In this document: positions 2,888-21,063 of the stretch, piece after piece
Layout of the letters: the number at the start of each line of letters is the position of its first letter
Position numbering within the stretch: the stretch's first letter is position 1
Origin: a virus
Length of the DNA: 21,080 bases
Reading direction: 5' to 3' (one strand)
IMG/VR virus record: IMGVR_UViG_3300025138_000463
Span: 1-21,080 of that record
The notes under the pieces: model-generated
The model's input: only the letters and a program-made list of their open reading frames with translations
Databases searched by the model: none
Told to the model about the DNA's origin: nothing
Translations under genes and position numbers: made by a program

Positions 2888-5689
2888 TTATCCTGTTTGA
2901 CCCAAAGTATTTTGGATTCTTATTGGAATGTATATAAACTCAACTGCTTTAACAGGCTGTATCGCTATGTCAATGTGCAATTCGTTTCTATCAATTCTTG
3001 CCGCTGTGTTATTTGTTGTGTCACAAACTGTAACAAAGTCAAATAATCCACGTTGAGAAACAAGTTCACCAAGTAGTCTATCAACAACTACTTTAGCATT
3101 TGATCTTGTAACTTCATCGTTTGGCTCGAATAAGAATGGTTTCACTGCGTCATCTAATTGCTCACGTAAGTAAACAACTAGTCTTGCAACATTAACTCTA
3201 TCCAAAGCACTTGATACTGGGTTTAAAGTTTTCTGTCCAAATACTGCAATTCCACGTCCAGGGAAGTTTCCAATTGGATTAATCTTATTACTGTAAAGAC
3301 TATCTCTTTGTCCTTCACTTAAAGCAACTGCTGTAAATTCGCTTGATGTTGCGTTTAAGTAACCAGTTCCAGAAGCATTACTTACTAATCCTCTTTGGAA
3401 TCCTGCTGGTGCAAACCATGGGAATGCCACCTGGTCGTTAAATGCTAAAGTTCTTAAAGCCATATGACTTGCAGGAACCATAACACTTGAACCGTCTAGG
3501 TTAGTAGATAATCCGTGTGGGTAGTAAACAGCCGCATATGGTGAATTAGTTACTAAACCATCTTCGCCATTTTCAGTTGTTACTGCATTGTTATTAATCC
3601 AGTTAGAAGTACTAGTTGCATCTGCGGCCAGTCTTAATGGCGCATCAATAATACTGAATACTGTATTCTTACGATCTGTTCCAAGAGAAATCATTTCGTC
3701 TGCTAGTTCAGGATATCCTGGAACTGCAATAATATTGAAACGGTTAGTTTCGTTTCTAATATCTTGATTTGCTGTTAGAGCCGATTGTAAAGAAGTAACA
3801 ATAACTTTTCTCTGAGCCTTTCTCAACATGTGAGGAGCACCGTTTGCCTTGTTACCACTAAAGTCTTTCCATAATCCTGAAGTACTATCATATTGCTTAA
3901 CGTTACCGCCACTTGCCATCTTGTTCCATGCTAAAATATTACTAGGATATTTTGTAGGTGATGGAAGACCGTTTGCTTCACTAATTAATGCACTTGTTTT
4001 TGTTGATCTAAAATCACCAAATACAACACCTGCTGGTGTTAGTTGGTCTGTATTATCTACTAGTACCCAAGCACCTGCTGAACTATATTTGTAAATTTTA
4101 GGATAGTTTTCTAAGTCACTTCCGTCAACCCAGATATCACTAGTTTGTAATGCACCTGCGTCACTTTGTGTTGTAGGTTGTGTAGACTTAACTTGTACAT
4201 CACCTGTATAAGTTGCCCATGAACCTGCATTATTATATAGTAAATCAACTGTTGCTGTGCTTACTGTTGCATCATACCATAAAGTTTTGTCTGCTAAAGT
4301 TCCTGTTAATTCAGTTGCTTTTGCTGTAAAACTTAATGCTTCATAGTTACTGTAAGGAACATCTGCTGTAAGGTTAAGTTGTGTCGGGGCAAACCCTGAT
4401 ACGTTACCAGCCATTAATAGAATATCTTTACCATCACTATTAGTAATGTTAAGTTTTCCACTGTTGTTTGTTGCTATAACATTTGCTGTATGAGATAATG
4501 TTGCGTTAGCGGCCGATATTGCTGTATTAATATCTATAACCATATCGTCTACACTTGAATTACCGTTTGCATCTGCATCAGTACTAAATGTTACATTAAC
4601 ATTTGAACCGTCATTAACTTGCATAATCATACTAACTTTACTTGCATGTGCTGAAATAACAACTTCTGAACCAACTAATGCCGCAGTACTTTCTGCTGTT
4701 ACACTTGTAGTTCCATTATGTCTTTTAGGCGTAAACCATGCTTGTTCGTTGTCTTGTCCAACACCAGCAACATCAACAAAGATATCGCCAACTACTGGAT
4801 TAGCACCGTGATAACTTGTACCCCAAGCATCAGACATAGCCTTTCTTGCGTATGCTGTTTGCTCTGTGAAGAGTCCAGTACTGCTGTTATATAATTTAAT
4901 TTTTAAATCTGTACCATTACTTAATACATTCTGTTGTAAGAATACATCGCCTGATACTAGTGAACCACCACCTTGTCTTGTGGAAGGTAAATCACTGTGA
5001 TCACCAATTTGAAAATCTGCTGAAGATGTATTTGTTCCCCAACCTGAGCTTCCAATTACGTCCCATACTGTATCAGTTGTCTTTTGGTAAATTTTAATTG
5101 TGTCTTTAGTAGCACCTGCTGTTGTAAAATATACAGCCGCATAGTCATTTTTAATACCGTATGATGTTTTAGGAACATCTCCAGTAGTTAAATTTGTACT
5201 TGCTGGTACTTTAACTGTTTGTTTAATCCAATTAGATCCGTCCCATTTCTTCACACCGATTACAGATGATGTAGTATCCAACCAGTAAGAACCGTTTGCA
5301 GGTTTAGTAGTTGGTGCTATTGCAGTTGCTGAAAGATCATTTAAATCAACATCCGCTCTTAGAACGTAAGCACTATTGGCTATTCCTAAGAAACTATATG
5401 CTGATAATAATCCAAATTCATTTTGCTCATTACCGTGTAATTGTGTAAGTCCACTTGCTTTAAAAGTTGGATTTCCATAATTTTGTAATAATTCTCTTTG
5501 GCTAGAAATCTTGTAAAGTTTTCCAGCAGTTGCTGAAGTTGTATAAGCAGATGTGCCTGAACCGTCTGGACTTGTTTTGTCCTGTGCTGTCGCTACGACG
5601 ATTAAAGGAACACTACCAGAACCAGCGGGAGCATAAAAACTCTCATCTGATACTGTTACACTTACTCCAGGTGATGTTAATGTTGCCAT
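2888..5689 (-). CDS. 18: Tail sheath protein, T4 gp18-like, enlarged
   Basis: This is the contractile sheath subunit. The N-terminus has the sheath signature (SPGVSVTVSDESFY near residues 6-19), followed by the RELLQNYGNP element. The C-terminal third holds the conserved assembly domain: NPIGNFPGRGIAVFGQKTL, the VARLVVYLREQLDDAVKPFLFEPND region, and an end with VEFIYIPIRIQNTLGQTG. At 933 residues it is far longer than T4 gp18 (659). The extra length lies in about residues 120-610, which carry several copies of a strand-rich module of the type GSYWLDT...KKWDGSNW or DIWVDGSD...KIYKYSSAGAW. Such protruding-domain expansion is known in sheaths of marine T4-like phages. The gene has its own late promoter, an AGGAG site 6 nt before ATG, a palindrome in its leader, and a terminator behind it, all consistent with a high-copy product. 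Confidence 0.95.
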   Translation of the reverse strand: MATLTSPGVSVTVSDESFYAPAGSGSVPLIVVATAQDKTSPDGSGTSAYTTSATAGKLYKISSQRELLQNYGNPTFKASGLTQLHGNEQNEFGLLSAYSFLGIANSAYVLRADVDLNDLSATAIAPTTKPANGSYWLDTTSSVIGVKKWDGSNWIKQTVKVPASTNLTTGDVPKTSYGIKNDYAAVYFTTAGATKDTIKIYQKTTDTVWDVIGSSGWGTNTSSADFQIGDHSDLPSTRQGGGSLVSGDVFLQQNVLSNGTDLKIKLYNSSTGLFTEQTAYARKAMSDAWGTSYHGANPVVGDIFVDVAGVGQDNEQAWFTPKRHNGTTSVTAESTAALVGSEVVISAHASKVSMIMQVNDGSNVNVTFSTDADANGNSSVDDMVIDINTAISAANATLSHTANVIATNNSGKLNITNSDGKDILLMAGNVSGFAPTQLNLTADVPYSNYEALSFTAKATELTGTLADKTLWYDATVSTATVDLLYNNAGSWATYTGDVQVKSTQPTTQSDAGALQTSDIWVDGSDLENYPKIYKYSSAGAWVLVDNTDQLTPAGVVFGDFRSTKTSALISEANGLPSPTKYPSNILAWNKMASGGNVKQYDSTSGLWKDFSGNKANGAPHMLRKAQRKVIVTSLQSALTANQDIRNETNRFNIIAVPGYPELADEMISLGTDRKNTVFSIIDAPLRLAADATSTSNWINNNAVTTENGEDGLVTNSPYAAVYYPHGLSTNLDGSSVMVPASHMALRTLAFNDQVAFPWFAPAGFQRGLVSNASGTGYLNATSSEFTAVALSEGQRDSLYSNKINPIGNFPGRGIAVFGQKTLNPVSSALDRVNVARLVVYLREQLDDAVKPFLFEPNDEVTRSNAKVVVDRLLGELVSQRGLFDFVTVCDTTNNTAARIDRNELHIDIAIQPVKAVEFIYIPIRIQNTLGQTG

Positions 5690-8674: not shown

Positions 8675-9640
8675 TTATTTTCCTTTAGAAAATTTCCTGT
8701 GAGGCATATCGTGATTGTGAGGTTTCTCATTTTCAATAATATCTTTCCAAACTGCAATAGTTTTATCTAATCCATCACTTAGTTCTACTTTAGGTTCCCA
8801 TCCTAATTTAGAAGTAATTTTTGCGTTTGTGCTATTAAGAATATAAATTTCACCTGGTCTTGGAGGTTTGGTATCCCAATTTACTGTACCCTTCCATTCC
8901 AGTTTTTCTGCAATCATATCTACATAATCTTTTATCTTAATTGCATTTTCTGGTCCAATACAGAATATTTCACCTTGACATTTATCTGGGTTTTCTATTA
9001 CTTGTTGCCATGCATCAAGTAAATCATCAATGTAAATAAAGTTTCTGTATGGTTCGCCATATCCTAAATTAATCTCATTAGGATCTTTTAACATTTGTGT
9101 AATAATTTGTTCAGTTACAAAGAAGTCGTTATCTTTTCTACCATATGCATTTGTCTGTCTAATAGCAGTAAATGGTAAACCTAAACTTCTATGTGCATAC
9201 TCTAAGTATTTTTCACAGCCATATTTTGCAACGGCGTAAGGGGCATTTGGATTTGGTTGTGTGTCTTCGTCAAATGCAATGATACCTTCTTCTAATCCAT
9301 CTCTAATTAAATCGCTAATTGGTTGCCATCCATATACTTCCATTGTACTTGCAAAAACAAAGTTTTTCAAGTTAGGCAATGTAGATGCAGATTCAATTAA
9401 GTTTACTGTACCAACATAGTTTACTTCTGAAAACACTATTTGCTCGTAAAAACTGTCTTGTACTTCTGTTCTAGCCGCTAAATGCACTATAACATCTGGA
9501 TTAAAGTCGTGTAGTTGTGCTTTTACTTGTTTATGATCTCTTAAATCATATTCTAAAAAACCTAGTTCGTGGTTATCTTTTAATCTGTCAACCATTGCTG
9601 AACCTATAAATCCGTCAGCACCTGTTATAAATATTCTCAT
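8675..9640 (-). CDS. NAD-dependent sugar epimerase/dehydratase (extended SDR)
   Basis: This is an extended short-chain dehydrogenase/reductase acting on nucleotide sugars. The Rossmann motif TGADGFIG is at residues 6-13, an HLAARTEV segment at about 53-60, the FAST active-site strand near 96-99, and the catalytic pair Y135-x3-K139 in APYAVAKYG. The C-terminal RPGEIYILNSTNAKITSKLGWEPKVELSDGL part is typical of UDP-glucose 4-epimerase/GDP-mannose-dehydratase-like enzymes. The exact reaction cannot be read. The tail (HNHDMPHRKFSKGK) is His- and Lys-rich and unlike the family core. It is the last gene of an overlapping operon: its ATG overlaps the end of the upstream oxygenase gene by 4 nt. The context suggests sugar modification together with the amidinotransferase and oxygenases. 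Confidence 0.85.
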   Translation of the reverse strand: MRIFITGADGFIGSAMVDRLKDNHELGFLEYDLRDHKQVKAQLHDFNPDVIVHLAARTEVQDSFYEQIVFSEVNYVGTVNLIESASTLPNLKNFVFASTMEVYGWQPISDLIRDGLEEGIIAFDEDTQPNPNAPYAVAKYGCEKYLEYAHRSLGLPFTAIRQTNAYGRKDNDFFVTEQIITQMLKDPNEINLGYGEPYRNFIYIDDLLDAWQQVIENPDKCQGEIFCIGPENAIKIKDYVDMIAEKLEWKGTVNWDTKPPRPGEIYILNSTNAKITSKLGWEPKVELSDGLDKTIAVWKDIIENEKPHNHDMPHRKFSKGK

Positions 9641-10179
9641 TGTATGTCCTTTGTGTTTGCGTACCCTGTTATTTGTAATGTATATCTGTTTATATTGCTA
9701 ACATTACTAACACAATGTACTTGGTTTTTTAAAATGTAAGTGTAATCGCCCTTACTATATTGTGGAAATGTGTAATCTGCTATTTCTAAAAAATGTCCCA
9801 TAATTTTATCTTGTAGGAAAACATTAACTCGTACAGGAATTTTTCCTTCTATATCCCATTTATTTAATTTTGCTAGATCATTAAGTCTAAAAAACTTATC
9901 TATGTGAGGTCCTATAAACCTACCTGGCTTTATACAATTCACTGTAACCATAGAATGTTCTATGTGTGGAAACTGTTCTCGTATTTTTTGTGCGTATGCA
10001 GGTGCATATTCATCATATGTTTGCAAAACAATAGGACCTTCTGTGGGATAATCCGGAATTGCCATATTGTTATCTTTCCAATACCCGCCTGACCAAATTG
10101 TATTTGTTTCTTCTACAAACTTTGTTAGATATAATTCTCTCTCATCTAACCAAGTAAGATCTACATGGCCTTTAATCAT
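9637..10179 (-). CDS. Fe(II)/2-oxoglutarate-type oxygenase, paralogue A
   Basis: The 180-residue protein has the facial-triad pattern of the aspartyl/asparaginyl hydroxylase-like cupin group: H92-I-D94 in PGRFIGPHIDKFF, distal H155 in QVHCVSN, and R165 ten residues after it, the usual 2-oxoglutarate carboxylate anchor. The strands between (VRVNVFLQD, GHFLEIADYTF, SKGDYTYIL) fit a double-stranded beta-helix. It could hydroxylate a protein side chain, a small molecule or a nucleotide; the substrate is not visible. The next upstream gene is a clear paralogue, and the two overlap by 8 nt. It overlaps the epimerase by 4 nt. It is part of the amidinotransferase operon. Confidence 0.75.
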   Translation of the reverse strand: MIKGHVDLTWLDERELYLTKFVEETNTIWSGGYWKDNNMAIPDYPTEGPIVLQTYDEYAPAYAQKIREQFPHIEHSMVTVNCIKPGRFIGPHIDKFFRLNDLAKLNKWDIEGKIPVRVNVFLQDKIMGHFLEIADYTFPQYSKGDYTYILKNQVHCVSNVSNINRYTLQITGYANTKDIQ

Positions 10180-10666
10180 TTTTTAGTACCGTTACCTGTG
10201 AGGAATAAAATGGTTCCTCTCCCATGTTTCCGGCAATATGCCAGTCGTCTATACCAAACTTAACCCAATCACCTGCTTTCCATTTAGTAAAAGGTTGATC
10301 GTGTACTTCATAATAGTGTCCACGTTTCCAATCTTCTAAAAATATTAAGTAACGATAACTTTCGCCCTCGCCATGTTCTTGTTTAAGTTTAAAATGTTTG
10401 TCAACATGATGTGGAATAGTTTGCCCTGGTGGAATATTAATTACACTTACAACATGATGATCAAAGTCTTGTGGTATCTTTTTTGCTAAATCATGTACCC
10501 ATTGTGGAGATTTTTCAAACATTTGCCATATGCTACTATTATGCTCTGTATAGTATTGTTCTATTGCAGGTGTTTGTTGATAACATTGAAAGTAGTCGTC
10601 AAAGTTTAATTGACTCATCTGGTCATTAGTGATTCCAAAGTTATCTATCTTTCCGTATTTAATCAC
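10172..10666 (-). CDS. Oxygenase-like paralogue B lacking the 2-oxoglutarate arginine
   Basis: The 164-residue protein aligns by eye with the downstream 180-residue oxygenase: PGQTIPHHVDKHFKL against PGRFIGPHIDKFFRL, and GHYYEVHDQPFTKWKAGD against GHFLEIADYTFPQYSKGD. The metal-binding triad is kept (H87-V-D89 and H143), but the position ten residues after the distal His, R165 in the paralogue, is F153 here. That loss suggests a different co-substrate or anchoring residue, or a non-catalytic partner subunit. Its stop region overlaps the next gene by 8 nt and its ATG overlaps the amidinotransferase end by 8 nt, so all are co-translated. The fold assignment is solid relative to its paralogue; activity is uncertain. 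Confidence 0.68.
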   Translation of the reverse strand: MIKYGKIDNFGITNDQMSQLNFDDYFQCYQQTPAIEQYYTEHNSSIWQMFEKSPQWVHDLAKKIPQDFDHHVVSVINIPPGQTIPHHVDKHFKLKQEHGEGESYRYLIFLEDWKRGHYYEVHDQPFTKWKAGDWVKFGIDDWHIAGNMGEEPFYSSQVTVLKND

Positions 10667-11720
10667 AGTAGTTCTCTAACGTACCTTTACGCCTAAGATC
10701 TAAAGTAGCACAATGTATACCGCCAGAGAGCGTCATAGAATGCCTAAACTGTACAGGTACACTATCTATACCGTACTTGTCAAGTTCTCGCATTAGAGGT
10801 TCTTGTGCTGAGTCTAATACAACTGTATTCTCGTCTACACTTAGTAAGTTCATTCCAATGTACGGTGAGCATGGAGGCATGAAGCCTTCGTCTGCTAATT
10901 TACTTCCTTGCACTACACAATCATCAAACCATATTTTATCCCATTTCTTAAACATTTCAGGACAATTATCAGGTGTTACCCTACTACTATTCATAAGTAC
11001 TAGTCCTGGTCTAAGTGGAACAATAGTGCTATCAAAATGTGCAAAACTATATAGTTCACTGTAATGCATTTTATAACCCATAGGCTCAACTAATCTTTTT
11101 AACCACTGATATCCTTTCATGTTTCCTGAATTAGAAACTTGATATAATAAATCTCTACCGACTCTAACAATATTAGGAGCATCAAAACATATCTCATGGT
11201 TAAGTAGTGTTGGTTTATCTGCAATGTCATCAAATTGGAACATGTCATCATGTAAGTTTGGCTTAGGTGCTTGTAGCCATAATGCTCCATCTTCAAATGC
11301 TTCATACATTATATCCTCATATAATTTTGTTTCAAAGTATCTTGCTCTTACTGGAGTAGGAGTTTCTATAAGCATATCGCCTAAAGGTAAAATTAAATCT
11401 CTTGGACACCAACTATACCAGCCTTTAGTATTCCATCCTTGGCCTATGTCGTAATTTACATTGTCCCAATCTATAATTTTAGGTCTGCGTACTTTAACAC
11501 CCATTTTTGTAAGTGCATCTGCAAGTCCGTCTGCATCTTCATTGGCTTCATCAATTACCCATTGTGGGTAAGTGCCTTCTAATTTTTCTACGTCTTCCTT
11601 TTTAAAGGGTGCATAACTAAAACTTCTTGCTGAAATATCAGTTGCTATTCTGCTATGGTGAGCATGTCCTACGATTATTTCCTCTAAAGGGTCCCAATCG
11701 TTGTGGGAGTTTACTATCAT
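10659..11720 (-). CDS. Amidinotransferase (glycine/inosamine amidinotransferase family)
   Basis: This enzyme moves the amidino group of arginine to an amine, as in L-arginine:glycine amidinotransferase or the streptomycin enzyme StrB. The catalytic triad is intact: D180 in CFDAPNIVRVGRD, H228 in SFAHFDSTIVPLRPG (H-x-D), and the nucleophile C337 in SGGIHCATLDLRRKGTL, with family-typical spacing to the C-terminus. Length (353) is close to StrB-type enzymes and shorter than human AGAT, which has a leader peptide. It is the first gene of a four-gene overlapping operon behind its own late promoter (about 26-nt leader, AGGAG 6 nt before ATG). The acceptor amine is unknown. The neighbouring aminotransferase-like and epimerase genes make an amino sugar or amino acid plausible. 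Confidence 0.9.
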   Translation of the reverse strand: MIVNSHNDWDPLEEIIVGHAHHSRIATDISARSFSYAPFKKEDVEKLEGTYPQWVIDEANEDADGLADALTKMGVKVRRPKIIDWDNVNYDIGQGWNTKGWYSWCPRDLILPLGDMLIETPTPVRARYFETKLYEDIMYEAFEDGALWLQAPKPNLHDDMFQFDDIADKPTLLNHEICFDAPNIVRVGRDLLYQVSNSGNMKGYQWLKRLVEPMGYKMHYSELYSFAHFDSTIVPLRPGLVLMNSSRVTPDNCPEMFKKWDKIWFDDCVVQGSKLADEGFMPPCSPYIGMNLLSVDENTVVLDSAQEPLMRELDKYGIDSVPVQFRHSMTLSGGIHCATLDLRRKGTLENYCD

Positions 11721-11759: not shown

Positions 11760-12637
11760 TAACAGTCGCTAAGATATTCCGAAATACAGACTCTATAATT
11801 GCCTTCTATTCCTCTATTAAATTCTTCGTGTCTTTCTGCATCTCCTAGAGCAAAAATAACACTATCACAATATACTAAATTTAATTGTGAACAAAGTTCT
11901 TCGTATCTACTACCATACTTTTCCCAATTATAGTCTGGGCTAAAGTGTCTCATGTATGCTACACCTAATGCCATACTGTATTCATTTTGCATTTTAACTT
12001 CGTTAAGCATACTAATACCGTCATCTACATAGTCTTTTGTAAATCTTATACCCACTCTATGGTTTTCTAATGTATGAAACGGCTTACTAAGACTGCATGT
12101 AACTTCTTTAATTGCTGGATAATTATCTAAGTCTATGTGTATATTTTTTGCAATTCCCCAATATGCTATATCCAAACATACAGGTATATCATGTACATTA
12201 CATATTTTCATTATGTATTCAAAATCAGGATGTATGCAACCAAAATCACTAAAAGGAGCACTAATTAATAATGCATGTAATCCAGGCCCCTTTAAAATTC
12301 CTTCTAAATGGTGTGGATAAGGTATATATTTAAATTCTACATGTTTTCCTAAACATGCATGGTATTGAAAATCTCCTTCTAACACAATTATTTCTCGGTC
12401 TTTACTATGCCTTAAAATAAAATTATCAAAAGTTTGACTAGTACCCTGTGTATAATCTGCATGAGAAAAACTTTCTAATCCTTTTAAACTTTTATTATTA
12501 CTAAAGTTTAACCACTCTCTCCATACTGTACTATATGTTTCTAGGGACGGAATAGAAATATCATTTTTATCTAAGTGAAAATGAAAATCAGATAGTTCTT
12601 TATTTCTTATAGGCCTTGCGCCTCTAACTGCTGTCAT
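11759..12637 (-). CDS. Compact PLP-dependent aminotransferase-like protein (fold type I)
   Basis: Of the two possible starts, ATG at 12637 (MTAVRGARPI, 292 aa) is preferred over 12706. A perfect TATAAATA lies 5 nt before it, and the extra N-terminus from 12706 is a low-quality hydrophobic run that would cross the promoter. The protein looks like a small fold-type-I PLP enzyme: an ADYTQGTSQTF loop (about 60-70), CLDIAYWGIA with D156 and Y159 (the D-x-A-Y pattern whose Asp holds the pyridine nitrogen), and SLSKPFHTLENHRVGIRF with K185 as the likely Schiff-base lysine and R194 or R198 as the phosphate/active-site Arg. It is about 100 residues shorter than normal class I/II aminotransferases, so the small domain is reduced. 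It is divergent from a radical SAM gene and lies upstream of the amidinotransferase, suggesting it makes the amine acceptor. The fold call is by eye. Confidence 0.65.
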   Translation of the reverse strand: MTAVRGARPIRNKELSDFHFHLDKNDISIPSLETYSTVWREWLNFSNNKSLKGLESFSHADYTQGTSQTFDNFILRHSKDREIIVLEGDFQYHACLGKHVEFKYIPYPHHLEGILKGPGLHALLISAPFSDFGCIHPDFEYIMKICNVHDIPVCLDIAYWGIAKNIHIDLDNYPAIKEVTCSLSKPFHTLENHRVGIRFTKDYVDDGISMLNEVKMQNEYSMALGVAYMRHFSPDYNWEKYGSRYEELCSQLNLVYCDSVIFALGDAERHEEFNRGIEGNYRVCISEYLSDC

Positions 12638-12642
12638 GTATC

Positions 12643-12650
12643 TATTTATA
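12643..12650 (-). promoter_or_regulatory. Consensus T4 late promoter of the PLP-enzyme gene
   Basis: TATAAATA (12650-12643 on the minus strand) is an exact T4 late octamer. GATAC follows, then ATG at 12637. The predicted +1 is the A of the start codon. Confidence 0.78.
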
Positions 12651-12670
12651 ATATATGTTAATAAAATTTT

Positions 12671-12678
12671 GATAAGTA
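12671..12678 (+). promoter_or_regulatory. Possible late promoter of the radical SAM gene
   Basis: GATAAGTA differs by one base from GATAAATA and lies exactly 5 nt before the ATG at 12684, the spacing seen at six other genes. It is the basis for preferring 12684 over the in-frame ATGs at 12678 and 12636. Confidence 0.45.
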
Positions 12679-12683
12679 TGAGT

Positions 12684-13769
12684 ATGTATTTGCCAATATT
12701 TAACAAGCCTAAATCTGTACATGTAGAACTTACAGATAAGTGTAATGCACAATGTCCTGTATGTGTAAGAAGGTTTAATGGAGGTGAATTGAATCCAATT
12801 ATAAAAAATATTGAACTTAATGTTAATTATTTTAAAACACAACTAGGCAGAGAATTTTGTAGTAATGTAATGCATTGGGAGTTTTGTGGTACAAAAGGTG
12901 ATCCAATATCATGTACAGAATTATATGAAATAATGGAATATTTAACTGAGTGTCAACCTTTCACTTATTTTTCTATACACACAAACGGTGGATTCAAATC
13001 TGTAGAATGGTGGAGCAAATTAGGCAAGTTCTTTAAAAATTCTAATTCGTATATAATGTGGGGCATAGATGGTTTAGAAGATACAAATCATATATACAGG
13101 AAAAATGTTAAATGGAATAAAGTCTGGAATAACTTAAAAGCATATAACGAAGCAGGCGGTCCAAGTGTCTGGCAATTTTTAGAGTTTGATCATAACAAAC
13201 ATCAAATACCAGAAGTACAACAAATATGTAATGATATGGGTATTAGATTAGATATCAAAGATCCAGTAGGATTTAATTATAGAACAGAACCAGGTGATAC
13301 ACATGTTTCTGTTAGTCCCATAGAAGTACTTGACATTGAAGGAGAATTATCTTATTCTATTTTACCTAAAGATGCAACACAAGAACATATTAAAATAGTC
13401 CCTGTAGATGAGTATGGCAGAATGCTGAGAAGAACTGGAACAAAAATACTTGCGGACTTAGAAGAACATTACGATATAGACTGTCGTGTGGGTGTACATA
13501 CATCTGATTTATATATAGATTGTACTGGTGCATTTATACCTTGTTGTTTTATAGGTGCCGGAATGCATGTTCATGGTGTTGACCCACAATTAAAAGAACA
13601 ATTTAAAGATATAGAAAGTTTAATACCCTCAGAAAGCAATCCTCCTGAGAAAATATTTGCTAGTAAGTATTTTGCAGAAACACTTCCTAAAGGAATAAAA
13701 GGTGAATTATCTGATGATAAAAAGTATACTGTTCAATGTGTAGAAACTTGTGGCAAGTGTTTAGAATAA
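12684..13769 (+). CDS. Radical SAM enzyme with C-terminal auxiliary cysteines (SPASM/twitch-like)
   Basis: The radical SAM cluster motif is CNAQCPVC (C-x3-C-x2-C at residues 20, 24 and 27 from this start), right after a VHVELTDKC strand, as in the MoaA/PqqE/SPASM group. Downstream are WEFCGTKGDP (the GGEP-like SAM-binding element in altered form), FSIHTNGG, and IMWGIDGLEDTNHIYR, typical of the TIM-barrel core. The C-terminal part has further Cys: DCRVGVHTSDLYIDCTGAFIPCCF, and QCVETCGKCLE at the end, consistent with one or two auxiliary iron-sulfur clusters. Such enzymes modify peptides, sugars or cofactors by radical chemistry. The substrate is unknown. It is divergent from the PLP-like gene and next to the amidinotransferase cassette. 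ATGs at 12678 and 12636 are alternatives. Confidence 0.85.
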   Translation: MYLPIFNKPKSVHVELTDKCNAQCPVCVRRFNGGELNPIIKNIELNVNYFKTQLGREFCSNVMHWEFCGTKGDPISCTELYEIMEYLTECQPFTYFSIHTNGGFKSVEWWSKLGKFFKNSNSYIMWGIDGLEDTNHIYRKNVKWNKVWNNLKAYNEAGGPSVWQFLEFDHNKHQIPEVQQICNDMGIRLDIKDPVGFNYRTEPGDTHVSVSPIEVLDIEGELSYSILPKDATQEHIKIVPVDEYGRMLRRTGTKILADLEEHYDIDCRVGVHTSDLYIDCTGAFIPCCFIGAGMHVHGVDPQLKEQFKDIESLIPSESNPPEKIFASKYFAETLPKGIKGELSDDKKYTVQCVETCGKCLE

Positions 13770-15182: not shown

Positions 15183-16532
15183 ATGGCTGGTAAAAACTTA
15201 GATTATTGGTATGACGAACAGATAAAACGTTATCTTATTCAGCTCATAAGAATATTCTCAAATTTTAAAGTAAAAGAAAACACTAAAGATGGTATTAGAT
15301 ACAATCGTGTACCAGCAAGATATGGTGATGCACAACGAATGGTTGCTAGTATTTTGCGTAACAATTCAGAGAATGTTATTAATAGTGCTCCTTTTATAAG
15401 TGTTAATATATCTAGTATTCAACCTGCTAGAGATAGAACACATGAACCTTTCTTAGTTGATACCAATCAAGTAGCAGAAAGAGAATGGGATAACAAAGCA
15501 GGCTCATATACTTCTGAACAGGGAAACTTATTTACTACGCAAAGATACATGCCAGTTCCATATAACATGACATTACAAGTTGATTTATGGACTACAAATA
15601 CAGATACAAAATTACAGGTATTAGAACAAATATTTGTTTTATTTAATCCAAGTATACAGTTACAAAGCAATGATAATCCTTTAGATTGGTCAAGTGTATT
15701 TGAAGTTGAGCTTACAGATATTGCTTGGAGCAGTCGAGGAATACCTGCAGGTGTAGATGAAAATATTGATATATCAACATTAACATTTGCTATACCTATT
15801 TGGATTAGTCCTCCAGCAAAAATTAAAAGACAAAGTATTATTCAACGTATTATTGCAGATGTGCATTCAACACAAAATATAGAAACATTAGGCTTTAGTG
15901 AAGACTATGCAGACTTCTTTGGTAGTATAGATGATACTGCTGAAATAGTTGTTACACCCAATGATTATTATGTGCAAATTGTAGGTAGTGGTGCAACACT
16001 AGTAAATGCGGCAGGAGTGGTACAGAAATGGTCAGACGTTATAGACATGGTAGGTGAATTGACCGCAACTAGTTTACTAAAATTAAATATAGGTACAGAT
16101 AGCGATGATCTTTTAGGCGAAGTTATAGGTACAGTTGTTGCGAATCCTCTTAGTGAAACTTCATTAATATTTAATTTAGACACAGAAACACTACCCTCAA
16201 CAACATTAACAGCAGTAGATAAAATTATAGACCCTAGAGTATCGTATCCAGGAGATGGAACATTAGTCGCGGCGGCAATAGATCAAAGATATTTAATTAC
16301 AGAGTCCATTGACGACGTAGGCATGCCTAATTGGGCCGTAGACGCTTCTGCTAACGATATTATACAATATAACGGTACTAAGTGGACCGTAGTATTTGAT
16401 TCAAGTAATAACAGTGATATACAACAAGTTATTAATACATTTACTACCAGTCAGTACAAGTGGAGCGATGGAGCATGGATAAGTAGTTATGAAGGAGAAT
16501 ACAATCCAGGGTTCTGGAGACTAGCACTATAA
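15183..16532 (+). CDS. 15: Tail completion/sheath terminator protein, T4 gp15-like, enlarged
   Basis: The N-terminal 225 residues match the gp15 pattern: YWYDEQIKRYLIQLIRIFSNFKVK (in T4 a 'fRRYatLmgdLFsNiqik' pattern), a RVPARYGDAQRM segment (RVPITYAS in T4), MPVPYNMTLQVDLWTTNTDTKLQVLEQIFVLFNPSIQL, and TFAIPIWISPPAKIKR (in T4 WSLTFEVNGWMYPP). gp15 forms the ring on the top of the tail that binds the last sheath ring and docks to the neck. At 449 residues the protein is much longer than T4 gp15 (272). The extra C-terminus (about 240-449) is strand-rich and carries W-G/W-S modules such as NDIIQYNGTKWTVVFDSS and YKWSDGAWISS, like those in the sheath and gp14. Confidence 0.87.
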   Translation: MAGKNLDYWYDEQIKRYLIQLIRIFSNFKVKENTKDGIRYNRVPARYGDAQRMVASILRNNSENVINSAPFISVNISSIQPARDRTHEPFLVDTNQVAEREWDNKAGSYTSEQGNLFTTQRYMPVPYNMTLQVDLWTTNTDTKLQVLEQIFVLFNPSIQLQSNDNPLDWSSVFEVELTDIAWSSRGIPAGVDENIDISTLTFAIPIWISPPAKIKRQSIIQRIIADVHSTQNIETLGFSEDYADFFGSIDDTAEIVVTPNDYYVQIVGSGATLVNAAGVVQKWSDVIDMVGELTATSLLKLNIGTDSDDLLGEVIGTVVANPLSETSLIFNLDTETLPSTTLTAVDKIIDPRVSYPGDGTLVAAAIDQRYLITESIDDVGMPNWAVDASANDIIQYNGTKWTVVFDSSNNSDIQQVINTFTTSQYKWSDGAWISSYEGEYNPGFWRLAL

Positions 16533-17606: not shown

Positions 17607-17966
17607 TTAATATATTTTTCTTATTTGGTAATCAAAAGGTTCTACAGTTCTAATTTCAAATGCTCTATTATCCATATCTTTTCCTTTGATATGTTTAGGA
17701 GTTTTCTTAGTAATCTTCTTTAATAGATATCTTTTATGAGTTCTTGTAGTAACTATGTTTCCGTAACTATCTCTTTCAGAGTCTTTAAGATACCAAACCG
17801 TAAGTTCGTATTCTTCGTAAAATATTTTAAACCAAAGTCTAAGTATTGCTTTCCATAACTTTAATAACAGTGAGCCTGTAATTTTAGCAACAACTTTAGT
17901 TTTTTGCCATAGCCATGCTAGTGCAGATTTGCTTTTTTGTGATATGTTGTGTATAAACTTTTTCAT
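17607..17966 (-). CDS. Small basic protein with Trp-rich amphipathic N-terminus, unknown
   Basis: The 119-residue protein begins with a basic, tryptophan-containing helix region (about 1-50: SALAWLWQKTKVVAK, LLLKLWKAILRLWFKIFY). This could be a membrane-lying amphipathic segment rather than a true transmembrane helix, because Lys and Arg recur every few residues. The rest (about 51-119) is strand-like and polar (ELTVWYLKDSERDSYG, AFEIRTVEPFDYQIRKIY). I know no function for it. It has a predicted leaderless late promoter. Its stop codon directly abuts the stop of the convergent plus-strand gene at 17606 with no base between. Confidence 0.65.
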   Translation of the reverse strand: MKKFIHNISQKSKSALAWLWQKTKVVAKITGSLLLKLWKAILRLWFKIFYEEYELTVWYLKDSERDSYGNIVTTRTHKRYLLKKITKKTPKHIKGKDMDNRAFEIRTVEPFDYQIRKIY

Positions 17967-17971
17967 ACTAC

Positions 17972-17979
17972 TATTTAGT
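17972..17979 (-). promoter_or_regulatory. Late promoter, CTAAATA type, over an upstream stop codon
   Basis: ACTAAATA (17979-17972 on the minus strand), then GTAGT, then ATG at 17966. The TAA stop of the upstream oxygenase gene (17977-17975) is inside the octamer. The CTAAATA form resembles that described for late genes of marine T4-like phages. Confidence 0.7.
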
Positions 17980-18550
17980 CATTTATACTAAAATTAGTAT
18001 TTTCTTTTATTTCATTTACAAAAAACATATTTACAGTTATACGATCGCTACAATCTTCTTGTACCACAACTGTACTGTGCCAACTATCTTCTGATACTTT
18101 TATAAGTAGTAAGTCTCCAGGATTCCCGCCTATTTCCTTTAATGGATCAGAGTCGTCTGAAGTATGAATATTTGTACCAAACTTTTTAATAGGATTACAA
18201 TAAAGTATTCCCCTAACAGGTATTCTATCTATTTCGTGAAAATCATTATGTGGCCTTAATCCATGTCCTTTTTTATTAAAGGAATTTATGCCAATGTAAA
18301 TATCACATACATTTAAATCCCACATCTTGTTTACATTTTTTATTATAGATAATTTATTTACTTGCAGTTCATCTTCTATAGGATGTGATGAAAGACTTGA
18401 TAGCTCAGGATATTCATTTAATACATTATAATTTTGCATATATTCATCATATATACTTTGGTCTTGTATCATAGGTGCAAAATTTTCTATTAATAGATAA
18501 TCAAAAGGTTGTGTAACCGAATTGTTTTTATTAATTTCTAGTGTTTTCAT
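17975..18550 (-). CDS. Fe(II)/2-oxoglutarate oxygenase, prolyl-hydroxylase-like
   Basis: The 191-residue protein shows the double-stranded beta-helix pattern with metal ligands H101-N-D103 (LRPHNDFHEID) and distal H158 (EDSWHSTVVV). The probable 2-oxoglutarate-binding R170 lies 12 residues later (CSDRITVNMFF). GNPGDLLLIKV before the distal His is the usual turn into that strand. The N-terminal 70 residues are variable. It resembles the PhyH/prolyl-4-hydroxylase-like enzymes common in marine phages, whose substrates are mostly unknown. It is only distantly like the two oxygenases at 9.6-10.7 kb. It overlaps the adenylate cyclase gene by 4 nt (ATGA), so the two are produced together, which hints at a functional link or simply cargo packing. 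Confidence 0.78.
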   Translation of the reverse strand: MKTLEINKNNSVTQPFDYLLIENFAPMIQDQSIYDEYMQNYNVLNEYPELSSLSSHPIEDELQVNKLSIIKNVNKMWDLNVCDIYIGINSFNKKGHGLRPHNDFHEIDRIPVRGILYCNPIKKFGTNIHTSDDSDPLKEIGGNPGDLLLIKVSEDSWHSTVVVQEDCSDRITVNMFFVNEIKENTNFSIND

Positions 18551-20616
18551 TTTGATGTTTTTCTCATGACGCCGTCCCAGTCACCTATAGGCATAGGCTG
18601 TTTTATTCTTTCTGCATATAATTCTGCTAAAGTATCATTCCATCGATGATCTTTAATTATTTCTATTTGATTTGAGCATGTTGCCCACTCTCTGTTTTGA
18701 TATGCATCTACCATTCTATTTATAACTCTTGCATACTTGTGATCGTTTAGTATAGTATAAATTGTTACTGATGATGTTTGTCCTTTAACTGCAATTTTAT
18801 CTAGCATTACTAAATTTTCAGGTGATGCAATTTGTTTTAATGTATGTTCTGTAAACATAAAGAACACACCATACTCTTTTGTCTGTGCTTCTAAACGTGC
18901 CGCTAAGTTTACACTATCACCTAATACTGTATAATCAAAACGTTGATTACTTCCCATGTTACCTACAACTGCATCGCCTGTGTTAATACCTATACCAACA
19001 CCTAATTCCATTAAGCCATCTGCTTTAAGTTCTTTATTAAGATTTGCTAGTTCTACTTCCATTTCCATTGCTGTTTCTATAGCCAACTGAGCATGATTTT
19101 CTACATCGAGTGGAGCATTCCATATTGCCATTAAGGCATCTCCTATATACTTGTCTATTGTTCCTTCTTTACGCATAACTAAATCAGTCATTGGTGTCAT
19201 ATATCTGTTTATAAGTTTGCCTAAACCTTGTGGGTCTGTTTTAAACTGTTCTGATATAGGAGTGAATCCACGTATGTCTGAGAACAAGTAAGTCATTGTT
19301 CTTGTATCACCGCCTAATTTTAGTAGGCTTGGATCTTTTTGTAATTTTTTAACCATTGCTGGTGCAAGGTAATGCTCAAATTGTTTTTTAATTTGTTCAC
19401 GCAATTTAAACTGTTTATAAAAGTTATTAAATGCCGCCTGTGTGAACACTAAGAACCCTGCTATTACAGGGAAAGTAGCATCTAATAGTACTAGTTGACT
19501 TTGATACATATATACACTATAATAAGTATAACCGCCTAGTATAGTTAGACTCATAGGTGCTGTTAGCAGTAAAGGTAGTCTATACACCGCTAAAGATACT
19601 AAGAGCATTACTAGAAGGGCTGTAAGAAGCTCATAGAACGCACTCGTTTGACTTCTTGTTATATTGCTACCACTTATAAAGTTCTGTAGCATATGAGCTT
19701 GTATCTCTTGTGGATACAAGTTTCCACGTGGTGTTGGTACCGGATTAGCAATACCTTCTGCTGTTACTCCTACTATAACCGTTTTACCTGCTAAGTCTGG
19801 TATGCTATCAGCACCAGTATACTCTATTGTCTCAAAACTATTATTAAAACGTATATATGCTGTACCATCAGGTTGTGTTACTATTGGTTCGTAACCTTTT
19901 ACAGCAATCTCTTGTATTCCTATTTCACTTGTTTTAACTATATAACTTTTATTACCTGTTTTTACCCTAAGTAGTTCCACAGCAAAACTAGGATAAATTC
20001 TATCCTCTACTGTGATTGCTAATGGATATGTCCTTGTTTGATTATCTGGTTGTGGAGCAGATGCATTTACACCCTTGCCATTTACTACAGTCTCCAATAT
20101 TGCTACATTGGTAACAATGTTAGGCCATTTTAGTAAATAGTTTTTTGCAGGTACAGGTCCTATTGTTCCTGTTCCTATATGCGGTCCAGTTGTTTTTATA
20201 CCTTTTATGCTTGGTGTCTGGCTTAAGACATTATAATTAATTGGGTTACGCCTAGCACCTGGAACATTTACTTTGTTTTGCATTAGCATGTCAGCAAAGG
20301 AGGCATCGCCTTGAAACCTGTCTTCTTCAGGAAACATAATAGTCCAACCTAATACGCCACCATTTTTACTTGCAACATCAACAACTAATTGAGCATAGTA
20401 TTGTCTGGGAAAAGGGTATTGGCCGTATGTTGCTAAAGTGTTTTCACCGAAGTTTAGTAATACAATATCTTGACTTGGAATGATTTCATCAAGTTGTTGA
20501 TAACTATCAAATACTTGTCCACGTAAACTTTGTACTGGAGTCGGATCTGTCACTCTTAAAGCGAGTAAAAGTACTATAGATATGACAACCGCATATCCAC
20601 TATATAACCATTTCAT
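18547..20616 (-). CDS. Membrane adenylate cyclase with CHASE2 sensor domain (class III)
   Basis: The 689-residue protein is organised as: transmembrane helix 1 (about 7-21); a large extracytoplasmic CHASE2 domain (about 25-315, with IVLLNFGENTLATYGQYPFPR and GKTVIVGVTAEG-type motifs); three membrane helices (about 326-346, 350-368 and 375-396); then a class III cyclase domain (about 435-620). Catalytic residues appear intact: metal-binding D447 (LFSDIRGF) and D493 (IDKYIGDALMAIW), adenine-selecting K489, and transition-state N570 and R574 (LGDSVNLAARLE). T563 at the second base-selecting position fits class IIIb adenylate, not guanylate, cyclases. A TPR-like helical tail (about 628-675) follows. 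It would make cAMP in response to a periplasmic or extracellular cue. It has a predicted leaderless late promoter and overlaps an oxygenase gene. Phage-borne examples are rare. Confidence 0.93.
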   Translation of the reverse strand: MKWLYSGYAVVISIVLLLALRVTDPTPVQSLRGQVFDSYQQLDEIIPSQDIVLLNFGENTLATYGQYPFPRQYYAQLVVDVASKNGGVLGWTIMFPEEDRFQGDASFADMLMQNKVNVPGARRNPINYNVLSQTPSIKGIKTTGPHIGTGTIGPVPAKNYLLKWPNIVTNVAILETVVNGKGVNASAPQPDNQTRTYPLAITVEDRIYPSFAVELLRVKTGNKSYIVKTSEIGIQEIAVKGYEPIVTQPDGTAYIRFNNSFETIEYTGADSIPDLAGKTVIVGVTAEGIANPVPTPRGNLYPQEIQAHMLQNFISGSNITRSQTSAFYELLTALLVMLLVSLAVYRLPLLLTAPMSLTILGGYTYYSVYMYQSQLVLLDATFPVIAGFLVFTQAAFNNFYKQFKLREQIKKQFEHYLAPAMVKKLQKDPSLLKLGGDTRTMTYLFSDIRGFTPISEQFKTDPQGLGKLINRYMTPMTDLVMRKEGTIDKYIGDALMAIWNAPLDVENHAQLAIETAMEMEVELANLNKELKADGLMELGVGIGINTGDAVVGNMGSNQRFDYTVLGDSVNLAARLEAQTKEYGVFFMFTEHTLKQIASPENLVMLDKIAVKGQTSSVTIYTILNDHKYARVINRMVDAYQNREWATCSNQIEIIKDHRWNDTLAELYAERIKQPMPIGDWDGVMRKTSK

Positions 20617-20631: not shown

Positions 20632-21063
20632 TTATTCGACGTCGTTTAGTGGGTTTTCAAGTATAGTTGTGATCTTTTCTTCTAAGTCTTTTCTTAACTC
20701 TCTAGCATCAGAATCAATCTCTTTAAAACGTGCATTCATATCACGTTCCATAGCATACACATCATTTCTAATTTCTCGTTGTGTTTCTGCTGATGTTTTA
20801 TCTGTTGTTCTTGCTAAGTCCATCGCTATAGTAATATCATCTCTTAGATCTGTTTTGATAATATCAGTAAGTTCGCGAATATTTTCTAACTCTTGCTGAA
20901 TTGCTTCTGGTTCTAAACCTGCTAACTTTTCTTCTGCTTCAAGTAGTCTATTATACATTTCAAAGCCTCCCCAAAGTCCGCCTATTAAAGTACCCAGTAA
21001 AGGAAGTATAATGACTAGTTTGGAACCACTCATTTTAACACCTGCCATTTCTATCTCTGCCAT
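20632..21063 (-). CDS. Membrane-anchored coiled-coil protein, unknown (possibly virion or spanin-like)
   Basis: The 143-residue protein has a short N-terminus, one hydrophobic segment (about 15-33, KLVIILPLLGTLIGGLWGG) that could act as a signal anchor, and then a long, highly charged coiled coil from about 40 to the end (EAEEKLAGLEPEAIQQELEN, ERDMNARFKEIDSDARELRK). The topology of an N-terminal anchor plus a periplasmic coiled coil is like that of an inner-membrane spanin, but no partner outer-membrane lipoprotein is visible here. Similar coiled-coil proteins are also annotated as structural proteins in T4-like marine phages. It has a GGAG ribosome site (about 21071-21074) 7 nt before ATG. 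The promoter lies outside the window. Confidence 0.7.
   Translation of the reverse strand: MAEIEMAGVKMSGSKLVIILPLLGTLIGGLWGGFEMYNRLLEAEEKLAGLEPEAIQQELENIRELTDIIKTDLRDDITIAMDLARTTDKTSAETQREIRNDVYAMERDMNARFKEIDSDARELRKDLEEKITTILENPLNDVE

Follow-up and report, generated by a model that had tools for sequence, protein, structure and literature searches.

Curli (T8SS) gene clusters of pelagiphages, containing FecR and closed by an adenylate cyclase gene, were described in 2022 (PMC9599517). Curli genes were also discussed in PMC7029224 and in the paper on methylophage Melnitz (PMC9004378) with the cyclase left out, and the word 'adenylate' is absent from the main text of the latter. A literature phrase search on phage adenylate cyclase returned no match. 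Among bacteria, the CHASE2 adenylate cyclases of S. meliloti (CyaD1, CyaD2 and CyaK) combine CHASE2 with a class III cyclase domain, as does the phage protein, and together with the outer-membrane protein NsrA they raise cAMP for the CRP-family regulator Clr (PMC13001267). The Burkholderia BiofilmReg operon couples a LysM-FecR protein with a CHASE2 histidine kinase (PMC5192318). It is similar to the phage cluster in the pairing of a secreted FecR protein with CHASE2 and has a biofilm phenotype, but its output is a histidine kinase with a response regulator, not cAMP, and no curli genes are named in it.

The window analysed here, a stretch of 21,080 nucleotides of the virus record IMGVR_UViG_3300025138_000463, contains a complete ORF (ATG to stop) whose product starts with a single TM helix and a periplasmic CHASE2 domain and continues through three more TM helices into a class III cyclase domain (Table 1). 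The Pfam search detected CHASE2 (PF05226, 1.1e-31, aa 15–339) and Guanylate_cyc (PF00211, 1.1e-19, aa 440–622), and almost the entire protein matched PHROG 35576 (3.6e-170), a family with the function label 'unknown'. The AlphaFold2 model (mean pLDDT 86.9, pTM 0.64) comprised TM1 (~7–23), an alpha/beta CHASE2 domain (~26–315), TM helices at residues 325–346, 349–374 and 381–413, the last of which extended into the linker, and the cyclase fold (437–622). The sensor and the catalytic domain of a CHASE2 class III adenylate cyclase were thus both found (Pfam, residues), and the model placed one TM helix ahead of the sensor and three behind it. The cyclase fold was like that of P. aeruginosa CyaB (3r5g) and Spirulina CyaC (1wc1), with target TM-scores of ~0.9 and 32–35% identity, but these PDB entries aligned with the catalytic domain only and had no counterpart to the CHASE2 part. 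In BFVD, the entire protein matched another phage protein annotated as COG4252 (target TM-score 0.93). The Pfam, model and PDB matches bear out the original prediction of a phage-encoded CHASE2 transmembrane class III cyclase.

Table 1. Features of the cyclase gene and its neighbours (window coordinates).
Feature	Coordinates	Strand	Basis
CHASE2 transmembrane class III adenylate cyclase, 689 aa	18547..20616	-	Pfam, PHROG 35576, model, PDB matches
TM helix 1 (aa 7–23)	20548..20598	-	model; hydropathy
Periplasmic CHASE2 sensor domain (~aa 26–320)	19657..20541	-	Pfam PF05226; model
TM helices 2–4 (~aa 325–402)	19411..19644	-	hydropathy; model; pairwise comparisons
Linker/signalling helix (~aa 403–433), strongly conserved	19318..19410	-	83-copy alignment; model
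Class III cyclase catalytic domain (aa 437–622)	18751..19308	-	Pfam; residues; PDB matches
C-terminal helices (aa 626–672)	18601..18741	-	model
143-aa single-TM coiled-coil protein	20632..21063	-	15 bp upstream of cyclase
2OG-oxygenase-like protein	17975..18550	-	weak 2OG match
119-aa protein, final gene of same-strand run	17607..17966	-	ORF list; immediately downstream of cyclase in other loci

The residues D447, K489, D493, N570 and R574 were all located at the predicted positions. D447 and D493 correspond to metal ligands, K489 and T563 to base recognition, and N570 and R574 to the transition state. Position 563 is the second base-recognition position of class III cyclases. Among 83 phage copies, D447, K489, D493 and R574 were invariant, N570 was kept in 82, and position 563 was occupied by T (71 copies), S (11) or D (1). 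We read the K489/T563 pair as the purine, adenylate type, which fits ATP. The single copy without the Asn came from Melnitz (MZ577095–MZ577098, PMC9004378), in which a full-length homologue (33.4% identity; L002:10001–12052) is located in the same cluster and differs in the active site by N570S and T563D. Such substitutions may have weakened or altered the activity of the Melnitz cyclase.

Pairwise comparisons of the window gene with 15 relatives gave dN/dS values of 0.08–0.17, low in the sensor half and the catalytic half alike, and purifying selection is strong in both. In most of the pairwise comparisons, amino-acid divergence peaked in TM helices 2–4 (~aa 325–402). The selection, the conserved residues and the model agree with the earlier view of a gene that looks functional and has kept its sensor and membrane parts. 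The window protein is very probably an active cyclase, and its product would be cAMP. In one relative (L021:6001–8070), the DNA of the catalytic half, from ~codon 378 onwards, was near-identical to that of the window gene (pS 0.01), whereas the CHASE2 half was ~77% identical. This mosaic is either a metagenome chimera or the product of recombination with a breakpoint at TM4/linker, in which one effector received a different sensor.

The gene had been regarded as unusual, and a survey of related phages had been proposed together with assembly chimerism as a possible refutation. The scan of IMG/VR revealed at least 207 loci with relatives of the cyclase, and tblastn identified homologues in HTVC008M and in four Melnitz strains. 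The gene is therefore not singular, being present in hundreds of marine phage contigs as well as in HTVC008M, Melnitz and the published pelagiphage curli clusters. An assembly chimera is ruled out because so many loci carry relatives; in addition, the contig IMGVR_UViG_3300020360_000085 (250,519 b, GC 33.5%; the 250-kb contig) was collinear with nearly all of the window. In the cyclase tree, the phage copies formed one clade (98% SH-aLRT), within which the window cyclase fell together with those of the curli clusters, and the phage copies share common ancestry. The clade was divided into two deeply diverged sides, one with HTVC008M and Melnitz and the other with the window; the nearest bacterial row, from an alphaproteobacterial MAG, had a long branch. 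The cyclase of HTVC008M (KC465899) belongs to the same family and was 36.7% identical over 87% of the query.

In HTVC008M and Melnitz, the genes for CsgF, CsgG, curlin, FecR and curlin precede the cyclase, which closes the cluster on the same strand. In the 250-kb contig, this set follows two small TM genes and is separated by four inserted ORFs from the cyclase and the oxygenase-like gene, all on one strand. The gene order of the window's relatives thus corresponds to that of the pelagiphage clusters, but the window's lineage has ~1–3.3 kb of variable genes between curlin 2 and the cyclase. Wherever a phage locus extended at least 3.5 kb upstream of the cyclase (22 loci), it contained curlin and/or FecR genes. 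For the nearest relative (L005), 1.9 kb upstream was available and this stretch had no curli gene. The assignment of the window's own cyclase to such a cluster is based on relatives, since the window has just 464 bp ahead of the gene. Two small TM proteins (92–115 aa) were encoded ahead of CsgF in HTVC008M (L003:6860–7422), Melnitz (L002:5294–5932), L067 and the 250-kb contig. A 'histidine kinase' at this place was rejected for HTVC008M, Melnitz and L067, as the proteins are of this small TM type and gave no kinase match.

The link between curli and the cyclase was seen in phages only, because true alphaproteobacterial curli loci (six) had no FecR or cyclase gene within ~9 kb. Three loci filed in Rhodobacteraceae and Pirellulales MAGs (L085, L087 and L089) shared genes with the phage curli/FecR cluster, and their cyclases fell inside the phage clade. 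As bacterial FecR, curlin and cyclase loci they were rejected on account of this placement and of the small TM genes of phage clusters, and they are probably mis-binned phage contigs. These three aside, curli genes were absent at all other bacterial cyclase loci examined.

The immediate neighbours of the window cyclase were also found in other genomes. The 143-aa coiled-coil gene had a 99% identical copy at the same position in L005. The start of the 2OG-oxygenase-like gene and the stop of the cyclase share 4 bp (ATGA), and in many other phage loci a relative of this gene came right after the cyclase. The phage itself had been described as T4-like, which is not simply so: the tail sheath and a gp15-like protein (window 2888–5689 and 15183–16532) were nearest to those of Pseudomonas jumbo phages of the PA5oct group, in contrast to HTVC008M and the pelagiphages. 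The structural genes were nearest to this group and not to HTVC008M or cyanophages, which speaks against a pelagimyophage (Kyanoviridae) origin of the window, and the tail genes apparently point to a marine jumbo-like phage lineage. No cyclase match was obtained by tblastn in the PA5oct-group phages. The curli cluster with the cyclase therefore occurs in two or more separate lineages of myophages among those examined, in addition to the published podophages. The proposed late expression was unsupported, since the T4 late promoter motif TATAAATA was not detected upstream of the cyclase gene; the whole window contained three such sites versus five expected.

Elsewhere in the window, a radical-SAM-like gene (12636–13769; Pfam 1.8e-06, slightly below the cut-off) separates genes that adjoin each other in the 250-kb contig, and it was read as a variable insertion. 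A gene run at 8675–11720 resembled, in a by-eye reading, a sugar epimerase, two related oxygenase-like proteins and an amidinotransferase-like protein, and was kept in the 250-kb contig.

In a second alignment, CHASE2 was present in all 52 bacterial cyclases. Among the genes directly preceding bacterial CHASE2 cyclases, FecR was the most frequent family (9/38 vs 9/797 other ORFs with an HMM built here, Fisher p = 1e-8), with the p-value ignoring relatedness and overstating independence, as six of the nine FecR-adjacent cyclases were from Campylobacterota. Taken together with the alphaproteobacterial curli loci free of FecR and cyclase, these bacterial pairs make the phage cluster look like a FecR-CHASE2 pair fused to a curli secretion set. 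The best reading of the gene neighbourhoods is that FecR-CHASE2 is a bacterial envelope-sensing pair transplanted into phage.

The phage FecR protein had PF04773 as its sole domain, behind an N-terminal signal-like segment. The role of an iron-citrate regulator, suggested in PMC9599517, was rejected as unlikely because no cytoplasmic anti-sigma domain was found in it. In the structure comparison, with a moderate model (mean pLDDT 66.8), the first beta-domain of the phage FecR resembled the surface-anchoring module of the antifreeze adhesin 5ix9; at the sequence level the match was weak (profile positions 25–95, E 0.23). The C-terminal ending [IVL]x[IV]xQ, as in curlins, was present in 10 of 11 distinct phage FecR proteins, versus 5 of 1241 other ORFs and none of nine bacterial FecR partners, the pattern having been picked after it was noticed and Fisher p-values on such hand counts being descriptive. 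Curlin 1, FecR and curlin 2 were the only three of 25 ORFs with this ending in Melnitz and accounted for three of the five matches among 234 ORFs of the 250-kb contig. The FecR and curlin 2 genes overlap in HTVC008M and Melnitz, but they do not overlap in the 250-kb contig, so gene overlap fails to explain the curlin-like ending of FecR.

The phage curli-cluster cyclase as such is already known from HTVC008M, Melnitz and the published pelagiphage clusters. New here are the additional phage lineage, the bacterial FecR-CHASE2 linkage and the curlin-type C-terminal strand on the phage FecR.

A reading of the cyclase as a sensor linked to curli and FecR is favoured with moderate confidence. A sensor independent of curli, which is merely carried along with the cluster and adjusts the physiology of the host by way of its CRP-type regulators, appears rather unlikely. 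It would suit the variable genes between curlin 2 and the cyclase in the window's lineage, the 29 of 38 bacterial CHASE2 cyclases whose upstream neighbour was not FecR (none were found in curli loci), and the capacity of larger alphaproteobacterial genomes for many cNMP-binding proteins (12 in one of them). The linkage to curlin/FecR across two deeply diverged phage clades argues against it, as does the lack of CRP sites in the window; in the 250-kb contig relaxed matches alone were noticed, at two places. A search for two families, cNMP_binding and GAF, identified no cAMP receptor in HTVC008M, Melnitz-3 or the 250-kb contig, in contrast to the S. meliloti pathway with its NsrA and Clr. Among 15 small proteorhodopsin-bearing alphaproteobacterial genomes, 11 had neither cNMP_binding nor class III cyclase domains, and two of these carried the exact site of the SAR11-441R 16S probe and are referred to here as SAR11-signature genomes; this result bears on hosts of the HTVC008M type only. 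The two kinds of protein co-occurred perfectly in this set, both being present in G010, G144, G243 and G324. The reprogramming of CRP-type regulation put forward in the original prediction thus found no support in the window, the three phages or the two SAR11-signature genomes.

A role in lysis timing, with CsgG as a gated pore and a CHASE2 cyclase that signals or sets off the collapse of the membrane, would build on the proposal of the Melnitz authors that CsgGF is a secretin- or pinholin-like pore (PMC9004378) and on the co-clustering of the cyclase with csgG. It is improbable, as a simple pore would need neither the curlin-repeat proteins nor FecR, which are conserved alongside the cyclase, and no route from cAMP to lysis is known here. 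Still less credit is given to a nucleotide signal that disturbs cyclic-nucleotide anti-phage defence as a decoy or inhibitor, a competition considered in the original prediction. PADLOC PycC models did match the protein (best 5.7e-30), but the match was confined to the shared class III catalytic domain, and a sensor of 290 aa with four TM helices under selection would be superfluous for a decoy. This idea also leaves the linkage to FecR and curli unexplained, and positive evidence for it was not found. A Pycsar (PycC) cyclase was likewise rejected, given the purine-type K489/T563 and no recognisable effector gene beside the cyclase. Equally hard to credit is a passenger gene that does little or nothing for the phage: the lost transition-state Asn of the Melnitz copy and the lack of an identified cAMP receptor in the three phages and the SAR11-signature genomes would agree with it, but the low dN/dS across the gene and the catalytic residues invariant in all copies but Melnitz do not.

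In the favoured model of a curli/FecR-linked sensor, the cyclase would be an inner-membrane receptor whose periplasmic CHASE2 domain senses the state of the envelope. The three TM helices and the signalling helix would relay the signal to the class III catalytic domain, which would act as a homodimer and convert ATP to cAMP in the infected cell. The cyclase would be the output of a mobile cluster carried by phages, whose other products are CsgG as the outer-membrane curli pore, its partner CsgF, two curlin-repeat proteins and the secreted FecR-domain protein. Judging by the bacterial FecR-CHASE2 gene pairs, the FecR protein is the most likely periplasmic or surface partner of CHASE2 and may act as its ligand. 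The curlin-like C-terminal strand would link FecR to the amyloid, and the cyclase would therefore inform the cytoplasm of curli assembly or contact, with the state of curli as the signal. A more far-reaching and tentative idea is that marine phages carry a self-contained amyloid-sensing circuit, in which FecR couples the phage's own curli fibre to the CHASE2 cyclase and a not-yet-recognised receptor reads cAMP where a streamlined host has neither class III cyclases nor cNMP-binding proteins.

The window adds a member to the phage curli-cluster cyclases, in what is apparently a jumbo-phage lineage. The question of what phage curli are for becomes whether CsgG, FecR and curlin control the output of the cyclase, and what binds cAMP in hosts seemingly devoid of a canonical receptor. 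If the sensing model is true, these phages would install a complete second-messenger line from the envelope to the cytoplasm in their hosts.
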